Source of the DNA: Paludibacterium sp. | GTDB lineage: Bacteria > Pseudomonadota > Gammaproteobacteria > Burkholderiales > Chromobacteriaceae | NCBI RefSeq assembly: GCF_019232825.1 | Contig: NZ_JAFAND010000090.1 | Coordinates: 1 to 64,000 of the forward strand | Direction: 5' to 3' | DNA: 64,000 bases | Part shown: positions 1,928 to 36,792 of the stretch, one piece after another | Numbering within the stretch: the first letter of the stretch is position 1 | Layout: each line of letters starts with the position of its first letter | The notes under the pieces: model-generated | Seen by the model: the letters and a program-made list of their open reading frames with translations, nothing else | The model's database searches: none | Told to the model about the DNA's origin: nothing | Made by a program: the position numbers and the translations under genes

Positions 1928-2348
1928 TTTCCTTCCCCCCGATTTTGGCGGCGACGATGGCGCGACGATGGAAAAACGGCCAAACAAGCTTCCGTTCGCC
2001 GCTCCCGGCATCAAACCGGATGTGGAGAATGGAAGCCCGGCGACCCATCATCGATCCGAGGCCGGCGCACGGCCACGTCGAATAGACGACACGCGTCTAT
2101 CCCGACGGATAGATAACAGCGATCCGAAGCTGGTAAAACCCAATTGGTAGAGCGTGCTAGGGATATTGCAGCCGGTCATGACGACCGGTACTCGAAGCGC
2201 GCTAACCCGTTGTAGCGAGTCAGCGGCAGGGGACGAAAGACCCGGTGTGCTTAACTCGCCAGTACTTCGCTGGCCCAAGCCAGCATGCAACTCTGGGAAC
2301 TACTGCCCACGTCGGAGCCCTTATGTCATTGATAACGGTGGAATTATA
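1928..2348 (-). promoter_or_regulatory. Promoter and ~400-nt structured leader of the Nramp-type gene
   Basis: On the minus strand a perfect -10 box TATAAT lies at 2348-2343, placing a likely start of transcription near 2336. About 400 nt then precede the start codon. That RNA has several self-complementary arms: GCTGG/CCAGC (2286-2271), GCGAGT/ACTCGC enclosing the 2260-2212 region, and CCGGTC/GACCGG (2188-2172). I compared it mentally with M-box, yybP-ykoY and ykkC consensus words and found no convincing match. A cis-regulatory RNA is an inference from length, position and hairpins. Confidence 0.4.
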
Positions 2349-2441
2349 GCTATAGGTAAACTATTTGAGAAGCCCTTTAATTAATAATTTACATCGTCAT
2401 AGCGATGCGATTGGTTATCAATATGGTACGGGGAACATACA

Positions 2442-2906
2442 ATGAGACGTTGGCTATTACTATTTTGCTGCGTGCTGGCGCCAGTTAGGCTCTGGGCCGG
2501 CGAACCCGGAAACATGCCGTTGAAAATGCGCTTGGACACCGGCCAGACGCTGGTCGTGGCGGAAGGGGAAGGCGAGGCACGCTCACTCGGCAGCTACAGC
2601 ATCCGGCTCTATCAGGCCGCGCCGGCTGCCGACGATACCACCTTTTTTCAATACGGCATGATCCGGCCGCGCGACGGTTTCCTGCAGGGCATCAACCTGC
2701 TGCGCCTGCCGCAGTACGACACGCGTCTGGTGGTCGTGGTGATGCAAAGCGCCGGCACCGGCAGCTATCTGGCGGCCGATGCCTATTTGCCGGCGCCGGA
2801 TCATCTGACGCTGGTGCGCTGCGTGCGCGGCATCCCGCCGCGGGCGGACTTGGGCGAGGCGCTGCGCCAGGCCCCGAGTGCCGACGTATCCTGCGTCACG
2901 CCTTGA
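2442..2906 (+). CDS. pliI: PliI-like periplasmic inhibitor of i-type lysozyme
   Basis: A 154-residue protein with a signal peptide of about 19 residues (MRRWLL..., cleavage after LWA). The mature part has the PliI features GSYSIRLY, IRPRDG and SAGTGSYLAADAY, the last corresponding to the S-G-x-x-Y lysozyme-binding loop of this family. The two cysteines near the C-terminus could form a disulfide in the periplasm. PliI proteins protect Gram-negative bacteria against invertebrate-type lysozyme. The gene is monocistronic and its last 11 bp overlap the end of the convergent MFS gene. Family assignment rests on remembered motifs; another beta-sheet lysozyme inhibitor is the main alternative. Confidence 0.6.
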   Translation: MRRWLLLFCCVLAPVRLWAGEPGNMPLKMRLDTGQTLVVAEGEGEARSLGSYSIRLYQAAPAADDTTFFQYGMIRPRDGFLQGINLLRLPQYDTRLVVVVMQSAGTGSYLAADAYLPAPDHLTLVRCVRGIPPRADLGEALRQAPSADVSCVTP

Positions 2907-5041: not shown

Positions 5042-6337
5042 TTAAGCCACATCCTCCAAGCCGAACATTTCCGCCTGATCGTCGTAGGAGAAGATTTCGC
5101 CGTAACGGCCCCAGTTGATCACCGAATCGAGCGTTTCTTCCGCGGCTTCGTCACTCAAATAATCCTCCAGCTCCTGCTTGAAGCGGTCGCGCGGCGCGCG
5201 CTGTTTCGGCCGCTCGTTGAGCACCTGTTTGATGTGCGCCGCCAACGGCACCCCGCGCAACAGGCAATCGGCGAACAGCTGCTTGCGCTCTTGCGTGCCG
5301 AAATCGGAGTATTGCCGGCCATAGTAGGTCAGCGTGATGTCGCCTTCGGACATGTCGGCGAGCCCCAGGTGCTGCAACAGCTCGGCCACCGGGAATAGAT
5401 CGTCGACCTCCATGTGCAGCTGCTGGGCGATTTCCGGCATGTCGGCGCGGCCGTTGTACGGCGCCGCGGCCACGGTCTCGATCAGGCCGGCGATCAGGTT
5501 GGTCGACACCTGCGGCAGCCAGCTCTTGAGCTCCAGCCCCATTTTGCGCTGCGCGTCGGCCTGCGGCCGGCGCGTCATCTTGGCGTAGATGTCGTCGACG
5601 AACTGGCGGAACGCCGGATCGAGACGGTTGCGCGGGTGGGCGAACGGCACGGTGACTTCGGAGATCACCCGGCCGGGATTGGACGACAGCAATAGGATGC
5701 GGTCGCACATGAACACCGCCTCCTCGATATTGTGGGTCACGATCAGGATCGACTTGATCGGCAAGCCGCCCTCGTTCCACAAATCGAGCAAATCGGTGCG
5801 CAGCGTTTCGGCGGTCAACACGTCGAGCGCCGAGAACGGTTCATCCATCAGCATCAGCGTCGGGTTGACCACCAGCGCGCGGGCGAAGCCGACCCGCTGG
5901 CGCATCCCGCCCGACAGCTCGCGCGGGTAGGCGCTTTCGAACCCGTCAAGACCGATCAGGTCGATCGCCTTGAGCGCGCGCTCGCGCCGCTCTTTCGCCG
6001 GCACGCCGAGCGCCTCCAGCCCCGCCTCGACGTTTTCCAGCACCGTGAGCCAAGGAAACAGCGCAAAGGTCTGGAACACCATGGCCACGCCTTCGACTGG
6101 ACCGGCGACCGGACGGCCGCAGTAATTGACCTCGCCGTCGGTGGCCGGAATCAATCCGGCGATAATGCGCAGCAGCGTGGATTTTCCCGAACCGGAGCGG
6201 CCGAGCAGGCCGACGATCTCGCCTTCCTTGAGCGTCACGTTGACGCCGTCGAGCACCTTGAGTTCACCCTGCGCCTTTTCGAACCCGCAGCACACTTCAC
6301 GGGCGTCGAGGATGGTTGCATTGCTGTGGTTTTCCAT
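5042..6337 (-). CDS. ABC transporter ATPase, nitrate/sulfonate type, with C-terminal AAA-associated domain
   Basis: A 431-residue cytoplasmic ATPase. The first ~260 residues are a complete nucleotide-binding domain: Walker A GRSGSGKST, signature LSGGMRQR, Walker B LMLMDEPF and the switch histidine in IVTHN. Another ~170 residues follow, as in the AAA-associated C-terminal domain found on some NitT/TauT-class ATPases. It follows the permease gene by 30 bp and surely works with it. The ATG at 6337 is preferred over a GTG three codons earlier because AGAAG lies 10 nt upstream. No substrate-binding protein is adjacent, so the substrate is unknown. Confidence 0.88.
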   Translation of the reverse strand: MENHSNATILDAREVCCGFEKAQGELKVLDGVNVTLKEGEIVGLLGRSGSGKSTLLRIIAGLIPATDGEVNYCGRPVAGPVEGVAMVFQTFALFPWLTVLENVEAGLEALGVPAKERRERALKAIDLIGLDGFESAYPRELSGGMRQRVGFARALVVNPTLMLMDEPFSALDVLTAETLRTDLLDLWNEGGLPIKSILIVTHNIEEAVFMCDRILLLSSNPGRVISEVTVPFAHPRNRLDPAFRQFVDDIYAKMTRRPQADAQRKMGLELKSWLPQVSTNLIAGLIETVAAAPYNGRADMPEIAQQLHMEVDDLFPVAELLQHLGLADMSEGDITLTYYGRQYSDFGTQERKQLFADCLLRGVPLAAHIKQVLNERPKQRAPRDRFKQELEDYLSDEAAEETLDSVINWGRYGEIFSYDDQAEMFGLEDVA

Positions 6338-6367
6338 GAGTCTCACTCTTCTACAGTCAGCCGCGGG

Positions 6368-8098
6368 TCAACGCAGGTGGTTTTCGGCATAAGCGTACAT
6401 CGGCCGCCACAACAGGCGGTTGAACAGCACCACGAACAGCGACATCGTGGCGATGCCGAGAATGATGCGCGGGAAATCCCCCGCGGCGGTCGTTTCGGCA
6501 ATGTAGGCGCCCAAGCCGTGCGCCTTGAGTTTAACGTCGCCCCATTGCACCAGCTCCGAGACGATGCTGGCGTTCCAGGCGCCGCCCGAGGCCGTGATGG
6601 CGCCGGTCACGTAGTAAGGGAAAATGCCCGGCAGAATGACCTTACGCCACCATTGCCAGCCGCGGATGCGGAAGTTGGCCGCCGCCTCGCGGAAATCGTT
6701 GGGGAAGGCAGAGGCGCCGGCGATGACGTTGAACAGGATATACCACTGCGTACCCAGCACGATCAGCGGCGACAGCCAGATATCCACGTTGGCGTGGAAA
6801 TGCACGATGCCAACGACGAACACCGGAAACAGCAGGTTGGCCGGGAAAGCGGCCAAGAACTGCGCCAACGGCTGAATCTTCTCCGCCAGCCGCGGCCGCA
6901 AGCCGATCAGCACGCCGAGCGGCACCCATACGACAGAGGCGAGCACAATGAGCAGCAGCACGCGCACGAGCGTGATGAGCCCCAGGATCTGGACGTGCCA
7001 GACGTCCTGCCAGCTAACGCCGGAGGCGACGTAGCTGATCACCCGCCAAGCCAGCGAACAGGTGCCGACGATGACGAGCACGGCCCACAGCACGTCGGCC
7101 AGCCGGCTCATCGCCGGCGATGCCGGCTTGGTCGCCGCCGGCATCGGCAGCCTGAACGGCGAGCGCGCCATGGCGCGCAGCAGGGCGCCCAGCGGCTGGA
7201 ACAGCTTTTGAATCAGCCGCGTGCGGCGCACCAGGTCGAGCAGCCACGACTCGGGCTCGTTCTGCGAACTGGTGTCCTCCATGCGGAACTTGTCGGCCCA
7301 CGCGACCAGCGGCCGGAACAGAAACTGGTCATAGGCCAGAATCACCAGCGTCATGGCGAGAATGACCCAGCCCACGGCGCTGAGGTTGCGCTCGGCGATC
7401 GCTTGCGCCAGGTAGGCCCCGATGCCGGGCAGGGTGACGGTGTTGTTGCCGACCGTGATCGCCTCGGACGCCACGACGAAGAACCAGCCGCCGGACATGC
7501 TCATCATCATGTTCCAGATCAGGCCGGGCATGGAGAAGGGCACCTCGAGCTTCCAAAAGCGCTGCCAGCCGGTCAGCTGGAAGCCGCGCGACACCTCGAC
7601 CAAATCGCGCGGCACCGTGCGCAGCGATTGGTAGAAGCTGAAGGTCATGTTCCAGGCTTGGCTGGTGAAGATGGCGAAGATCGCCGCGCACTCGGCGCCG
7701 AGCACCCGCCCCGGAAACAGCGCGATGAAAAAGGTCACGGTGAACGAAATGTAGCCCAGCACCGGCACCGACTGCAGGATGTCCAGAATCGGGATCAGCA
7801 CCTTCTCTGCCCGGCGGCTCTTGGCGGCCAGCGTACCGTACACCAGCGTGAACACGAGCGAGGCCAGCATGGCCGCCAGCATGCGCAAAATCGTGCGCAG
7901 CGAATACGCCGGCAGACTAGCGGGGTCGAGCGAGATGACTTGGGTCTTCAGCGTGGCCATCGGCGCCATGGTCTGATGAAACCCCGTGCTGCCGAGCACG
8001 ATGACGCACAAAATCAGCGGGAAGGCGACAAAGTCCCAGCGGTTGGGCAGCAGACGCCGCGCGGAGGCATTGAAGAGGGGCGGCAGAATCATGCGCAT
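6368..8098 (-). CDS. ABC transporter permease, two permease domains fused
   Basis: A 576-residue membrane protein made of two BPD_transp_1 (NitT/TauT-like) permease domains in tandem, about residues 25-275 and 330-570, joined by a charged linker (...DKFRMEDTSSQNEPESW). Each half has its own coupling-helix EAA-type motif: EVSRGFQLTGWQRFWK and EAAANFRIRGWQWWRK. One chain can therefore replace the usual permease homodimer. A good ribosome-binding site (GGGAG) precedes the ATG. It is the first gene of a two-gene operon with the ATPase. The first domain has an unusually long extracytoplasmic loop between its first two hydrophobic segments. Confidence 0.88.
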   Translation of the reverse strand: MRMILPPLFNASARRLLPNRWDFVAFPLILCVIVLGSTGFHQTMAPMATLKTQVISLDPASLPAYSLRTILRMLAAMLASLVFTLVYGTLAAKSRRAEKVLIPILDILQSVPVLGYISFTVTFFIALFPGRVLGAECAAIFAIFTSQAWNMTFSFYQSLRTVPRDLVEVSRGFQLTGWQRFWKLEVPFSMPGLIWNMMMSMSGGWFFVVASEAITVGNNTVTLPGIGAYLAQAIAERNLSAVGWVILAMTLVILAYDQFLFRPLVAWADKFRMEDTSSQNEPESWLLDLVRRTRLIQKLFQPLGALLRAMARSPFRLPMPAATKPASPAMSRLADVLWAVLVIVGTCSLAWRVISYVASGVSWQDVWHVQILGLITLVRVLLLIVLASVVWVPLGVLIGLRPRLAEKIQPLAQFLAAFPANLLFPVFVVGIVHFHANVDIWLSPLIVLGTQWYILFNVIAGASAFPNDFREAAANFRIRGWQWWRKVILPGIFPYYVTGAITASGGAWNASIVSELVQWGDVKLKAHGLGAYIAETTAAGDFPRIILGIATMSLFVVLFNRLLWRPMYAYAENHLR

Positions 8099-9726: not shown

Positions 9727-12700
9727 TCAGGGGGCCTCCGCGGCCGGCAGCGGTTTCTTGCGCCGCGCCTGGCTCCATAGGCGGAAGCGATCCAGGTATA
9801 GATAGATCACCGGTGTCGTATACAAGGTCAGCACCTGGCTGACCAGCAGGCCGCCGACGATGGAAATACCCAGCGGCTGGCGCAATTCGGCGCCATCGCC
9901 ATGCCCCAGCGCCAGCGGAATGGCGCCGAACAGCGCCGCCATCGTGGTCATCATGATCGGCCGGAAGCGCAGCATGCACGCTTGAAAAATGGCGTCGCGC
10001 GGCGACAGGCCCTGCCGCCGCTCGGCCTCGATGGCGAAGTCGATCATCATGATGGCGTTTTTCTTGACGATGCCGATCAACAGCAGCACACCGATCATGG
10101 CGATGACGCTGAACTCGGTATTGCAGCCCAACAGCGCGAGCAAAGCCCCCACCCCCGCCGAGGGCAGCGTCGACAGAATGGTCAGCGGATGCACCAAACT
10201 CTCGTAGAGCATGCCCAGCACGATATACACCGCCAGGATGGCCGTCAGGATCAGCACCGGTTGACTGGATAACGAGCTTTGGAAGGCGGCGGCCGAACCT
10301 TGGAAACTGCCGATGATGCTGGCCGGCAGCCCGATCTGGCGCACGGCGCCGTCAATGGCGGCGGTGGCGTCGGACAGCGACACGCCGACGGGCAGGTTGA
10401 AGGAGATGGTCACCGCGGCGAATTGCGCCTGGTGGTTGACCGCCAGCGCGGTATTGCCCTGCTCGTAGTGGCTGAACGCCGACAACGGCACCAGCGGGCC
10501 TTTGGTCGATGGCACGTAGATCCATTGCAAGGCGCCGGGGTCCTGCCACCAGCGCGGCGCCACCTCCATCACCACGTGATACTGATTGAGCGGCCGGTAG
10601 ATGGTCGAGACCTGGCGCTGACCGAAGGCATCGTTGAGCGTGCTGTCGACGGCGCTTTGCGTCACGCCCAAGCGCGCCATGGTATCGCGGTCGAACACCA
10701 GATAGGCCTCACGGCCTTTGTCCTGCTGATCGGAGTTGACATCGGCAAGCATTGGCAGCCGCATCAAGGCGCGGCGCACCTTCGGCTCCCAGGCGCGCAA
10801 CGCCGTCAGGTCGTCGCCTTGCAGCGTGTACTGATACTGCGCGTTGCTGGCGCGGCCGCCGATACGGATATCCTGCACCGACTGCAAGTACAGCGTCGCG
10901 CCAGGCTCGTGCGCCAGCGTCTTGCGCAACCGGGCGATCACTTGATCGGCGCTGTCCTGGCGCGCCGACAGCGGTTTGAGCGCAATGAACATATTGGCGG
11001 TATTCAGCTGCGAGCCACCGGTGAACCCCACCACCGAATCGACCGCCGGATCGCGCCGCACTTTGGCGATGAAGATATTGAGCTTGTCCCGCATCGACTG
11101 AAACGAGGTTTGCTGGTCCGCGAGCAGCATGCCGACGACGCGGCCGGTATCCTGCTGAGGGAAAAAGCCTTTCGGCACAGCGCTATACAGGTAGACGTTC
11201 AGACAAACGGTTGCCAACAGCAACAACATCATGGCCCGCCCATGCGCCAGCGACCAGGACAGCGAGCGCCGGTATCCCTCCTGCAGCCAGGTCAACGCGC
11301 GCTGCGCCCACTCGATGACGCGGCCATGCTCGCGCTCGTCATCGTGCACCTTAAGCCAGCGCGCGCACAGCATCGGCGTGGTGGTCAAGGAGACCGCCAG
11401 CGAAATCAGAATGGCCGCCGACAGGCTGATGGCGAATTCGCGGAACAGCCGGCCGATGATGCCGCCCATCAGCAGAATCGGAATGAAGACAGCGATCAGC
11501 GACAAGCTCATCGACAACACGGTGAAGCCGACTTCCTGCGCGCCCTTGAACGCCGCCGCCATCGGCGACAGGCCATTCTCGATATGACGCGAGATGTTTT
11601 CCAGCACCACGATGGTGTCGTCGACCACGAAGCCGGTGGCGATGGTCATGGCCATCAGCGACAGATTGTTCAAACTGAAGCCCGCCAGGTACATCACGCC
11701 GAAGGTGCCGACGAGCGACACCGGCACGGTGATGGCGGGAATCAGCGTGGCGCGGCCGTTGCGCAGGAACAGGAACACCACCATGATCACCAGGGCAATC
11801 GAAATCATCAGCGTGCGTTCGACGTCGGACAGCGAGGCGCGAATGGTCGGCGTGCGATCCAGCGGCACCGACAGATCGATGCCTTTCGGGATCGACGCCT
11901 GCAGTTGCGGCAACAGCGCGCGCACCCGGGCCACGGTCTCGATGATGTTGGCGCCCGGTTGGCGGGTCAACACCAGTACCACCGAATCCTGCCCGTTGAC
12001 CGAACCGGCGTTGCGCAGATCCTGGACCGAATCCACCACCTTGGCCACATCGGCAAGCCGTACCGCGCTGCCGTTGTTGTAGTGGACGATCAGCGGCAGA
12101 TAATCGCTGGCCCGCACCGCCTGGTCGTTGGCCAGAATCTGCCAGCGCTTGTCGCCTTGCTCCAGCGCACCCTTGGGACGGTTGGCGTTATTGCTTGCCA
12201 GCACCGTGCGCACCTGCTCCAGGCTGATGCCGTAGTGGGTGAGCGCTTGCGGTTCGAGCTCGACCCGCACTGCCGGCAACGAGCTGCCGCCGACGTTGAC
12301 GTCGCCCACGCCGTCCACCTGCGCCAGCTTCTGCGCCAGGATGGTCGAGGCGACGTCGTACATCTGCCCGCGGGTAAAGGTTTTCGACGTCAGCGCAATG
12401 ATCATGATCGGCGCATCCGACGGATTCACCTTGCGGTAAGTCGGATTGCTCGGCAGACCGCTCGGCAACAAGGCGCGCGCGCCGTTGATCGCCGCTTGCA
12501 CGTCGCGCGCGGCGCCATTGATATCGCGGTCGAGATCGAACTGCAGCGTAATGCGGGTCGAGCCCAACGCGCTGTTCGACGTCAGCTCGGTCACCCCGGC
12601 GATACGGCCGAGCGAGCGTTCCAGCGGCGTGGCCACGCTGGAGGCCATGGTTTCCGGACTCGCGCCCGGCAGCTTCGCCGAGACCGAGATGGTTGGGTAA

Positions 12701-12822
12701 TCAACCTGCGGCAACGGCGAAACCGGCAAGAGGATGAACGCCAGCCAACCCGCCAGCAGGATCGCCAACGTCAACAGCGCGGTGCCGACCGGACGGCGGA
12801 TAAAGGGCGCGGAGAGATTCAT
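9727..12822 (-). CDS. mdtC: RND multidrug efflux pump subunit, MdtC-like
   Basis: A 1031-residue inner-membrane proton antiporter of the HAE1 RND family. Residues 1-30 are the first membrane helix ([17 protein letters not shown]), followed by the porter domain ([20 protein letters not shown]) and the duplicated 2x6 helix layout. The proton-relay region in helix 4 reads [14 protein letters not shown], keeping the paired aspartates. Its ATG overlaps the stop of mdtB as ATGA, so translation is coupled. Known MdtB and MdtC form a mixed trimer, and the presence of both paralogs supports that here. Confidence 0.92.
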
Positions 12823-15800
12823 GCCGATTTCCGCCAACGCGAGGACAGCCGGTCAAAGGCCAGATAGATCACCGGCGTGGTGAACAGCGTCAATACCTGG
12901 CTGACCATCAAGCCGCCGACCATGGTCAGACCGAGCGGCCGGCGCAGCTCGGCGCCCACGCCAGAGCCCAGCATCAGCGGCAACGCGCCGAGCAGCGCCG
13001 CCATGGTGGTCATCAGAATCGGCCGAAAACGCAGCAGACACGCCTGATAGATCGCCTCGCGCGGCGCCAGCCCCTGATGGCGTTCGGCGTCGAGCGCGAA
13101 GTCGATCATCATGATCGCGTTCTTCTTGACGATACCGATCAACAACACGATACCGATGATCGCCACCATGCCCAGGTCGTTGCCGGACACCATCAGCGCC
13201 AACAGCGCGCCGACGCCGGCGGAGGGCAGGGTGGACAGAATCGTCACCGGATGGATCGTGCTCTCGTAGAGCACGCCCAGCACGATGTACATCGTCACCA
13301 CCGCCGCCAAAATCAACCACAGAGTATTGGACAGCGAGGCTTGGAAGGCCGATGCCGCGCCCTGGAAATGCGTTTGAACCGACAGCGGCAAGCCAAGATC
13401 CGCTTCGGCCTGACCGACGGCCTGCACGGCGCGATCGAGCGCGGCGCCGGGAGCCAAATCAAAGGAAATAGTGGCGGACGGGAATTGCCCTAGATGATTG
13501 ACCGTCAGCGGCGTATTGCGCTCCTCGACATGCACGACGGTCGACAACGGCACCTGCGTGCCGCTGGCGGTCGGCAGATACACCGCGTTGAGCGCGGCCA
13601 AGCCCGCATCGCCCGTCTTCTGTTCCAGCACCACGCGATACTGGCTGGTTTGGGTGAAGATGGTCGAGATCAGCCGCTGGCCGAAGGCGTCGTACAGCGC
13701 ATTGTCGATGGCCGACGGGGTAATGCCGAGCCGCGCCGCGGTATCGCGGTCGATGGTGACGTAGGCCTGCAAGCCGCGATCGAGCAGGTCGCTCGAGACA
13801 TTTTGCAAATCCGGCGATTGTCTCAACCGCTGCACGAGCTTGGGCGTCCACAGGCTCAGATCATCCAGCGTGTTGGCCTGCAGGATGAAGTGGTATTGCG
13901 AGCGGCTGACGCCGGAGTCGATGGTCAAATCCTGCACCGGCTGCAAGTAGCTTGCGATGCCCGGCGTTTGCGCCAGACGGGCGGACAGGCGCGGCAGAAT
14001 ATCGCTCATCGCGTCGCGGCGGTTCCCCGGCTTGAGGTTGACCAGCATGCGGCCGTTGTTGAGCGTGGCGTTGTTGCCATCCACGCCGATGAAGGACGAC
14101 AGACTTTCCACCGCCGGATCGGCCAGCAACACCCGCGCGACTTGTTGCTGACGTTCCGCCATGGCGGCGAAAGAGATCGACTGCGGCGCCTCGGTGATCA
14201 CTTGGATCGCGCCGGTGTCCTGGACCGGGAAGAACCCCTTGGGCACCCAGAGGTACAACAGCGCGGTCAGCGCCAGCGTGCCGACGGCCACCATGAGCGT
14301 GATTTTCTGCCGGTCCAACACCCAGGTCAGCACGCGGCCGTAGGCGGCAATCACCCGTTCGAAAAAGCGGCCGCTGGCGTGATAGAACCATCCCTGCTGC
14401 TCTTCCGGCACGTGCTTCAACAGCCGCGCGCACATCATCGGCGTCAGCGTCAGCGACACGAAGGCGGATATCAGGATCGACACTGCGAGCGTGATGGCGA
14501 ACTCGCGGAACACCCGGCCGACCACGTCGCCCATGAATAGCAGCGGGATCAGCACCGCGATCAGCGAGAAGGTCAGCGAAATGATGGTGAAACCGATCTG
14601 TTCCGATCCCTTCAGCGCCGCTTCGAACGGCTTATCGCCCTCCTCGATGTAGCGGGCGATATTCTCGATCATCACAATGGCGTCGTCGACCACGAAGCCC
14701 GCGGCGATGGTCAACGCCATCAGCGTCAAATTGTTGACGCTGAAGCCGGCCAGATACATGACGGCAAAGGTGCCGACCAGCGACAGCGGCACGGCCACGC
14801 CGGGGATGACGGTCGCCGGCACGCTGCGCAGAAACAGGAAGATCACCATCACCACCAGCGCCACGGCCAGCATCAGCTCGAACTGCACGTCGGCCACCGA
14901 TGCGCGCACCGTGACGGTGCGATCGGTCAACAAACGCACGTCGACGCTGCCGGGCAAGGTGGCTTGCAATGCCGGCAACTGTTGCTTGATGCGATCCACC
15001 ACCTGGATGACGTTGGCGCCAGGCTGGCGCTGGATGTTCAAAATGACCGACGGCGTGGTGTTGGCCCAGGCGGCGAGCTTGTTGTTCTCAGCGCCGTCGT
15101 CCACGGTGGCCACATCGGTCAGACGCAACGGCGCGCCATTTTTATAGCTAAGCACCAGCTTGCGATAATCGTCGGCGGAATTGAGCTGGTCGTTGCCGTC
15201 GATGGTGGCGGCAACCTTCGGCCCATCGAAGCTGCCCTTGGCCTGATTGACGTTGGCGTTGCTCACCGCGGTGCGCACATCGTCGAGGCTCAGGCCGGTG
15301 GCCGCCAGTTGCGGCCCATTGACGCGGATCCGCACCGCCGGCCGCTGGCCGCCGCCGATACTGACAAGCCCGACACCCGGCAACTGCGACAACTTCTGCG
15401 CCAGACGGGTATCGACCAGATCGGTCAGCTGCGGCAGCGGCACGGTCTTGGAGGTAATCGCCAGGGTCACGATCGGGGTATCGGCCGGGTTGACCTTGTT
15501 ATAGATCGGCGGCGAGGGCAGGTCGGTCGGCAGCAGATTGGACGCGGCATTGATCGCCGCCTGAACTTCCTGCTCGGCCACGTCCAGCGTGGTGTCCAAA
15601 CTGAACTGCAGGGTGATGGTCGACGCCCCGCCGGAACTGGACGACGTCATTTGATCCAGGCCGGGCATCTGGCCAAACTGACGCTCCAGCGGCGCGGTGA
15701 CCGAGGAGGTCATCACATCCGGGCTCGCGCCGGGGTACAACGTCACCACCTGGATAGTGGGGTAATCGACTTCCGGCAGCGCCGAAACCGGCAAAAAACG

Positions 15801-35727: not shown

Positions 35728-36792
35728 ATGGCACTCGTTTCAATGCGTCAATTGCTGGATCACGCGGCCGAATTCGGCTATGGCTTGCCGGCTTTCAACG
35801 TCAACAACCTGGAGCAAATGCGCGCCATCATGGAGGCCGCCGACAAGGTCGATGCGCCGGTCATCGTTCAGGCCTCCGCCGGCGCGCGCAAATACGCCGG
35901 CGCGCCCTTCCTGCGCCACATGATCCTGGCGGCGGTGGAAGAGTTTCCGCACATCCCGGTGGTCATGCACCAAGACCACGGCGTCAGCCCCGACATCTGC
36001 CAGCGCTCGATCCAACTGGGCTTCAGCTCGGTGATGATGGATGGCTCGCTCAAAACCGACGGCAAGACGCCCGCCGATTACGATTACAACGTCGGCGTCA
36101 CCCGCACCGTGGTCAACTTCTCGCACGCTTGCGGCGTGTCGGTGGAAGGTGAAATCGGCTGCCTGGGTTCACTGGAAACCGGCAAGGCCGGCGAAGAGGA
36201 CGGCGTCGGCGCCGAGGGCACGCTCGACCACAGCCAGCTCCTGACCGACCCGGAAGAAGCGGCGCGCTTCGTGCGCGATACTGGCGTGGACGCGCTGGCC
36301 ATTGCCATCGGCACGAGCCACGGCGCCTACAAATTCAGCCGCAAGCCGACCGGCGACGTGCTGCGCATCGACCGCATCAAGGAAATTCACGCCCGCATCC
36401 CCAACACCCACCTGGTCATGCACGGCTCGTCGTCAGTGCCGCAGGAATGGCTGGCGATCATCAATCAATACGGCGGCGAGATTCCGGAAACCTACGGCGT
36501 GCCGGTCGAGGAAATCGTCGAGGGCATCAAGCACGGCGTGCGCAAGGTCAACATCGACACCGACCTGCGCCTGGCCAGCACCGGCGCGATCCGCCGTTTC
36601 CTCGCCACGCATCCGGGCGAGTTCGACCCGCGCAAATACTTGGCCGAAACCATCAAGGCCATGCGCGATATCTGCATCGCCCGCTACGAGGCGTTCGGCA
36701 CCGCGGGTCAAGCCAGCAAGATCAAGCCGGTCGGTCTGGAAGCCATGGCGAACCGCTATACCAAGGGTGAACTGGCGCAGATCGTCAAATAA
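35728..36792 (+). CDS. fba: Class II fructose-bisphosphate aldolase (Calvin-cycle subtype)
   Basis: A 354-residue zinc enzyme cleaving or forming fructose-1,6-bisphosphate. Metal and substrate motifs: HQDHG (~residues 81-85), [34 protein letters not shown] and KVNIDTDLR. The sequence style matches the CbbA/Fba subtype common in betaproteobacteria. The ribosome-binding site GAGGGAG is close to the ATG. It is the last gene of the carbon block, followed by a strong terminator. Confidence 0.97.

Follow-up and report, generated by a model that had tools for sequence, protein, structure and literature searches.

A probable translation-dependent attenuator with two mutually exclusive helices ahead of Mg2+-uptake genes in Burkholderiales

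The locus considered here raises the question of what a leader of about 410 nucleotides does in front of a metal transporter gene. It lies on the minus strand of a 64,000-nucleotide stretch of DNA from Paludibacterium sp., the whole of which is called the window below, and an earlier note had read it as a metal-sensing or other cis-regulatory RNA, possibly of an undescribed class. The computational analysis of the locus and of its relatives suggests, with a probability of about three in four, that the element controls a Mg2+-uptake gene as a translation-dependent attenuator, working like the enterobacterial mgtL and corL leaders. The idea of a metal-tied regulatory RNA outside the described classes is well supported by covarying helices, recurrence before Mg2+ genes and the lack of an Rfam match, while its kind does not seem to be that of an aptamer: the likely signal is Mg2+ instead of Mn2+, and the likely sensor is the translating ribosome.

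In its general organization the leader agrees with the earlier note. The TATAAT at 2348-2343 is present and follows a TTCTCA at a distance of 17 nucleotides, and the resulting promoter (2343-2371, minus strand, as all leader features below) agrees with the consensus at 10 of 12 positions; two promoter-like sites were found in the leader region, against 0.5 expected. From the transcription start, predicted near 2336, about 410 nucleotides extend to the transporter ATG at 1927, ahead of which the leader ends in GGGGGGAAGG, with the ribosome-binding region of the gene at 1931-1940. Nested inverted repeats exist as well, but the folding of the whole leader exceeds chance only modestly (z -1.75, equalled by 5 of 100 shuffles), so that the repeats alone are not evidence, which came from the relatives instead. 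A hairpin CCGGUC-loop-GACCGG (2172-2188), just 3′ of the switch described below, occurs also in two congeners (L112, L113). A gene-proximal hairpin, CUUCCAUUC...GAACGGAAG (1985-2038), is common to the three Paludibacterium leaders and one Glaciimonas NRMT gene (L034), where L112, L113 and L034 preserve the arms and have a changed inner stem; when the collected loci were searched by pattern, no leader beyond these four had it. No intrinsic terminator was found in 1850-2450.

The product of the downstream gene (290-1927, 545 amino acids) matches PF01566, as expected of the Nramp relative named in the earlier note; it also matches three NCBIfam Nramp/MntH models, each at a score under the cut-off. 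Its nearest relative in the PDB is the Mg2+ transporter EleNRMT (7qia; E 1.2e-50, the next 1.8e-16), and in this comparison it is closer to NRMT than to the Mn2+ NRAMPs. The NRMT ion-site motifs are given as DxxG and TxxA/T in PMC8806188; in the window protein TTVA agrees with TxxA/T, and DAGA (DxxA) stands where NRMTs have DxxG. A second NRMT gene, 75% identical, is present in the same genome. The divergent gene of the window (2442-2906, plus strand) encodes a PliI-type lysozyme inhibitor (PF16743).

Known RNA families do not account for the leader. The covariance search that the earlier note had proposed was run, and over the whole window no Rfam family reaches its threshold; the M-box (RF00380) and the yybP-ykoY Mn2+ riboswitch (RF00080) have no window match at gathering and none at E up to 10 in 1850-2450, where the sole match, ncS035 at 2051-2081 (E 6.7), is taken as chance. 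The RF00080 model works in this setting, as it matched a Mn2+ riboswitch on the opposite strand near a porin locus (L173, 666-834, minus). No Rfam family was found at the element in 40 related loci, 34 of them with the element. In both actinobacterial loci scanned (L054, L108) an M-box takes the place of the element upstream of NRMT, and that these relatives of the transporter carry an M-box points to Mg2+. Further along, L054 carries a short ORF, MEPGSSC..., and two Mg2+ devices may thus be arranged one after the other there. A Rhizobiales-2 RNA was also found, roughly 1.1 kb upstream of the NRMT gene of a Bradyrhizobium (L049, 270-367).

A DNA similarity search of 60 other genomes gave strong matches (E <1e-80) only in two congeners, the best elsewhere having E 0.003 or worse, and further relatives were therefore gathered through the protein. 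In the two congeners 139 and 135 of 149 nucleotides are identical from 2342 to 2194. The best-conserved stretches fall in the leader and not in the gene: they are 2310-2251, the ORF described next, and 2225-2194 (30 and 31 of 32 identical), compared with 495 and 466 of the first 600 nucleotides of the gene.

Just after the promoter, about 25 nucleotides past the predicted transcription start, lies a short ORF of 19 codons (uORF1, 2310-2251), which starts with GUG 7 nucleotides after a Shine-Dalgarno-like AAGGG (2318-2322) and is identical at 60 of 60 and 58 of 60 nucleotides in the congeners; the arrangement is of the kind known for leader-peptide attenuators, and the predicted translation would give MGSSSQSCMLAWASEVLAS. 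Counterpart short ORFs, started mostly by UUG, are found in many NRMT leaders of other genera, and the leader ORFs of Paraburkholderia (MDSCSSRPSKSFSA), of Chromobacterium (MESCSSSWLSTGSC) and of the NRMT paralog in the genome of the window (MESCPSCRFGELN) may serve as examples. Among the leaders compared, the nearest relative of the window peptide belongs to Glaciimonas (L034, L188), in which a GUG-started MGISSQSSMLAWASDLIAR precedes mgtC, with NRMT further downstream. The spacing to the promoter recurs too, a TANAAT being placed 33-40 nucleotides before the leader ORF in 26 of 48 non-redundant leaders (base shuffles: mean 0.44, maximum 2), and no further TANAAT was found in the 80 nucleotides upstream of the ORF in those 48.

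A candidate leader ORF was picked in 93 of 96 distinct element matches, in a table assembled by hand from which some weaker matches, such as the minus-strand ones of L061, L062 and L093, were left out. The starts are UUG in 66, AUG in 17 and GUG in 10, and the second residue is D in 69, E in 13, G in 6 and another in 5, figures that come from a picker with a preference for GA at the second codon and a requirement for a Shine-Dalgarno match of at least 3 bases. The stop codon falls at model position 14 in 77 of the 93. The window peptide, MGSSSQSC..., is without the acidic second residue carried by 82 of the 93, and the early acidic and proline residues of the MgtL type were not found in it (GSSSQS). 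A scan for ATG-started acidic/proline uORFs, whose criteria were fixed after examples had been seen, scored 43 of 105 distinct upstream regions, where the reverse strand gave 7 and 20 shuffles gave 5.6 (maximum 12); it missed the window because the ORF there begins with GUG.

The codon content of the leader ORFs is peculiar. In 48 non-redundant ORFs, from which L034 was excluded since the picker had chosen an ORF other than its GUG one, serine AGU makes up 93 of 108 AGY codons and arginine CGA 24 of 58 arginine codons, against 72 of 644 and 32 of 1350, respectively, in the NRMT genes of 55 loci. Among the ORFs counted, 79 of 81 Asp codons are GAC and 59 of 97 Cys codons are UGC; with no wobble shift for Asp and a partial one for Cys, the bias is not toward wobble codons generally, which counts against the slow-codon idea taken up below. 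Over the first 11-12 codons, frame 0 is open in all 48 ORFs, by selection, frame 1 in 37 and frame 2 in 14, and the substitution pattern in the 48 was not decisive as proof of coding.

The stop codon of the leader ORF is also where a three-segment switch begins. Segment 1 (2249-2260), which holds the UAA at 2253-2251, is separated by a pyrimidine-rich spacer (C 0.41, G 0.21 over 48 leaders) from segment 2 (2214-2227), and segment 3 (2197-2209) follows. Helix 1:2 joins 2260-2253 with 2221-2214, all 8 of its 8 pairs forming in the window row of the first alignment below, and helix 2:3 joins 2225-2216 with 2209-2200; as both need segment 2, they cannot coexist. Duplex energies in the window are -15.4 (1:2) and -17.2 kcal/mol (2:3). 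Mutually exclusive helices with one arm at the ORF are thus present, as in ribosome-controlled attenuators. No conserved fourth segment was found (mean longest helix 8.24, compared with 8.01 in shuffles, n=68; 12 of the 68 reach 10 bp).

The alignment of relatives' leaders, the other check proposed in the earlier note, was carried out on two sets of sequences and revealed conserved stems, namely these two exclusive helices. A1 is a MAFFT alignment of 28 sequences gathered by the leader-ORF pattern or by eye, and A2 consists of 44 further sequences, none from A1, which are matches of a covariance model (R1) whose sole helix is 2:3. Segment 1 enters R1 as sequence without pairing, so that A2 tests 1:2 free of any bias toward the helix, though not of a bias toward the consensus. 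Covariation was judged by five measures against shuffles that ignore the relatedness of the sequences. In A1, helix 1:2 has 87.1% of cells paired, 18 doubly changed cells and a covariation score of 0.352 (0.242 shuffled, 0/500), and helix 2:3 has 87.9% paired and 25 doubly changed cells; for either helix none of 500 shuffles reached the pairing, the doubly changed cells or the covariation score. Pairs changed on both sides were unremarkable in A1 (reached in 265/500 shuffles for 1:2 and 62/500 for 2:3), and so were further pair types (243/500 and 94/500). In A2, helix 1:2 is 86.4% paired, with 44 doubly changed cells, a covariation score of 0.375 (0.230 shuffled, 0/500), 7 of 8 pairs compensated (2/500) and further pair types at 52/500, and helix 2:3 is 94.4% paired, with 43 doubly changed cells, 7 of 12 pairs compensated (5/500) and further pair types at 1/500. 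When the partners are slid by 1-3 columns, pairing in A1 falls to 28-57% (1:2) and 31-55% (2:3), and in A1 and A2 together to 28-60%, a comparison in which the drawing of the helices from single members of each alignment favours the unslid position.

Model R1, trained with the window element, gives it 39.7 bits. Model R2, built from A2, finds it at 2194-2278 with 30.2 bits (E 6.2e-6 over 72,719 bases); R2 was made without the three Paludibacterium leaders of the window's kind and includes the mgtC leader of the window's own genome (L148) and two window-like leaders (L034, L086). Three further R2 matches in the window have E 0.035 to 0.7. Two candidates were set aside as chance, 35897-35979 (R2, E 0.0056), antisense inside the ORF 35728-36792, and 9824-9899 (R1, E 0.15), inside a 1036-aa ORF on the same strand (9727-12837).

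With stricter filters, R1 matches 27 of 399 genomes of the order, the window's included (26 of 398 others), and in a sample of the class the window's genome alone of 369 (0 of 368 others). The order scan gave 31 matches, 30 of them with a locus and two of these from the window's genome. When each locus is assigned by the reference gene that comes first on its strand, within some 1.5 kb, 28 of the 30 have NRMT (15), an OprB-like porin (6), MgtC (2), an MgtA-type ATPase (2), an ABC permease (1) or a Pfam-less protein followed by MgtA (2), and the remaining two have no reference gene, one lying at a contig end. Seven of the 15 NRMT cases are in the R1 training alignment and three more share a genus with its members, the other families being outside the training, and the proteins of L148, L177, L175, L165, L166, L178 and L202 were themselves the references, which makes their rows self-matches; Pfam gives a family for all seven except L178. 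Gene families were checked on examples with Pfam and NCBIfam. The MgtA piece, being a fragment, does not reach the TIGR01524 cut-off for whole proteins, and an ABC permease is followed by its ATPase in L221 and in L215, where the permease is cut short. Starting from protein, 13 NRMT genes in 12 of 300 genomes of the order have the element with E <1e-5 in 10 cases, 0.0011 in two and 0.2 in one.

A second set comprised the 17 genomes behind the fetched loci, 12 of them with a match. Its tally of 31 rows, that is, 30 of 33 matches with a locus plus the mgtC match of the window's genome, lists NRMT 11, MgtC 4, ABC permease 3, ABC ATPase 2, OprB 1 and none 10. The mgtC match is the third best of the window's genome (23.1 bits, E 0.02), with a UUG-started ORF MDSQSCQPHRLFVPQA and the MgtC gene 117 nucleotides on.

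Two gene families behind the switch may gain a function from it. OprB-family porins (PF04966) are found there in L158, L160, L161, L165, L166, L173 and L202, and a Pfam-less protein in L172 and L178. Five of the six OprB loci of the order scan were extended: MgtA lies behind the porin in L211, NRMT in L210 and a weak NRAMP-like match (24% identity) in L212, and no Mg2+ transporter gene was found behind it in L209 or in L213, where the contig ends; MgtA is also next to the Pfam-less protein in L219. The Mg2+ transporters that follow in L210, L211 and L219 make the porins and the Pfam-less protein candidate outer-membrane Mg2+ channels. Near the NRMT gene of the window, an ABC ATPase with an AAA_assoc_C domain (PF09821) and a two-part permease are encoded at 5042-8098 (minus strand), and since homologues stand behind the same switch in Paraburkholderia and another relative (L155, L181, L191, L192, L199, L200), this transporter may be a Mg2+ importer. 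In front of the window's own copy the search gave no convincing element.

The leader of the paralogous NRMT gene (L137) has features of its own. About 300 nucleotides before the gene it carries a leader ORF of another type, MDEDPSSWPVTLTGMGPPGSKEN; the core of this ORF, GGUCACGCUG, is complementary to CAGCGUGACC some 80 nucleotides on. A corresponding helix of 8-14 bp is found in 11 of 13 loci examined, L137 and Pseudomonas included, a count made with no control comparison, and tandem attenuators are suggested. In L137 (at -453), L114, L124, L125 and L138, NRMT is also preceded by a small ORF, some 40-60 codons long and beginning with M[HSN]Y[GA]xLL, which lies between the two leader ORFs; the L137 copy has no Pfam match.

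As for the mechanism, a ribosome that has reached the stop would lie over segment 1, and its position would thereby decide between 1:2 and 2:3. The genes served are mostly uptake genes and should be ON at low Mg2+, and in mgtL and corL, according to PMC11552253 and PMC11282234, efficient uORF translation at high Mg2+ turns expression OFF, in Salmonella via Rho. This published logic suggests, by analogy, that 2:3 is the OFF fold and 1:2 the ON fold, and that the leader probably switches Mg2+-uptake genes on when Mg2+ is short. Transcription would begin near 2336, and a ribosome would initiate at the weak start (GUG here, mostly UUG in the relatives) of the 19-codon ORF. With sufficient Mg2+ it would finish the ORF, sit on the stop and mask segment 1, so that 2:3 pairs, the pyrimidine-rich spacer and the RNA behind it stay free and transcription ends early, most likely via Rho. 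At low Mg2+, translation of the ORF would fail early, the free segment 1 would capture segment 2, and RNA polymerase would read on into the NRMT gene. Given no intrinsic terminator, no conserved fourth segment and a spacer rich in C and poor in G, we infer that Rho is the likeliest means of termination.

In MgtL, acidic and proline residues make ribosomes drop off. Such drop-off may also hold for the many relatives with D or E at residue 2, and not plainly for the window peptide with its G; the rare AGU and CGA codons would be an alternative source of slow translation. A rather doubtful extension of the attenuator reading builds on the latter, and sees in the element a new Mg2+-sensor class common to an order, in which slow decoding of AGU and CGA in a weak-start leader ORF, and not acidic residues or an aptamer, reports cytoplasmic Mg2+ and throws the 1:2/2:3 switch, with a regulon including an unrecognised ABC-type Mg2+ importer and OprB-family outer-membrane Mg2+ channels.

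The same features can be read in other ways. The richness of the leader ORFs in Ser, Cys and Arg and in rare codons would also suit a similarly built attenuator that responds not to Mg2+ itself but to charged tRNA (Ser, Arg or Cys) or ATP, as reported for mgtP and mgtM of Salmonella, such signals being described for the mgtC operon in PMC8092293; the genes served, however, are for Mg2+ uptake and not serine, cysteine or arginine genes, and this signal is regarded as unlikely. Quite improbable is a true metal-binding riboswitch, in which Mg2+ binding to the RNA would drive the exchange of the two helices and the ORF would be incidental or a mere translation readout. The similar stability of the window helices and the Mg2+ gene context are compatible with it, and the near-identical ORF nucleotides of the congeners could reflect a constraint on the RNA. 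Yet neither A1 nor A2 has a junction or loop conserved in the manner of an aptamer, Rfam gives no match at the element, and what is conserved is an ORF with its start and Shine-Dalgarno sequence and the segments at its stop, a core that points to the ribosome, not a metal-binding aptamer, as the likely sensor.

The near-invariance of part of the leader in the congeners might, finally, be that of promoter-proximal DNA, an operator or a processing site, with the helices coincidental. Against this stand the doubly compensated pairs of both helices in two sets of sequences and the loss of pairing on sliding, which leave such a coincidence hardly credible. The translation-dependent attenuator remains the preferred reading, although several results weigh against it: the window peptide without the MgtL-type residues, the failure to find an intrinsic terminator or a conserved fourth segment, the two unremarkable covariation measures in A1, the ten of 31 rows in the second set with no reference gene downstream, and the modest folding of the leader as a whole.

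Among known systems, mgtL/mgtA and corL/corA of Enterobacteriaceae share with the element a short leader ORF, a pair of exclusive RNA folds and a Mg2+ importer downstream, and the corL of E. coli has a weak UUG start as well (PMC11552253). The element differs in that its peptides are of another kind (MDSCSSR..., MGSSSQS...), the MgtL motif being EPDP (PMC11282234), in that its segments sit at the ORF stop codon and in that the genes behind it also include NRMT, OprB-like porins and an ABC transporter; comparison with those leaders at the sequence level was via Rfam alone. According to PMC8092293, mgtQ has a short ORF with an acidic residue 2 and 1:2 against 2:3 pairing, as here, but its fourth segment sequesters the mgtB ribosome-binding site, whereas the element has none conserved and is promoter-proximal. 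The M-box (RF00380) likewise controls the NrmT transporter class (PMC4072509; L054 and L108 here), yet it is an aptamer without a leader ORF as sensor and is absent from the window. The nearest recent work found, on a Mycobacterium tuberculosis M-box with a uORF and Rho (PMC12810186), concerns a different element. No published description of the element was found in a literature search, which covered few subscription journals. In trp-type attenuators, the position of the ribosome on the leader ORF picks between overlapping helices. They too are mentioned in PMC8092293, and for the element, unlike them, no intrinsic terminator or fourth segment was found. The element is read as a probable further form of the enteric-type leader-ORF attenuators, outside the Rfam families, before Mg2+ genes in Burkholderiales.

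The published leader-ORF controls of Mg2+ genes that were found are from enteric bacteria. If the same logic is found in another build, with two exclusive helices that covary, ahead of at least five families of genes in Burkholderiales, recruitment of the ribosome as a Mg2+ sensor would seem to have happened more than once. The element is, moreover, a marker for Mg2+ regulons, and it gives a testable role to the ABC transporter, of which the window neighbour at 5042-8098 is a homologue, and to the OprB-like porins.
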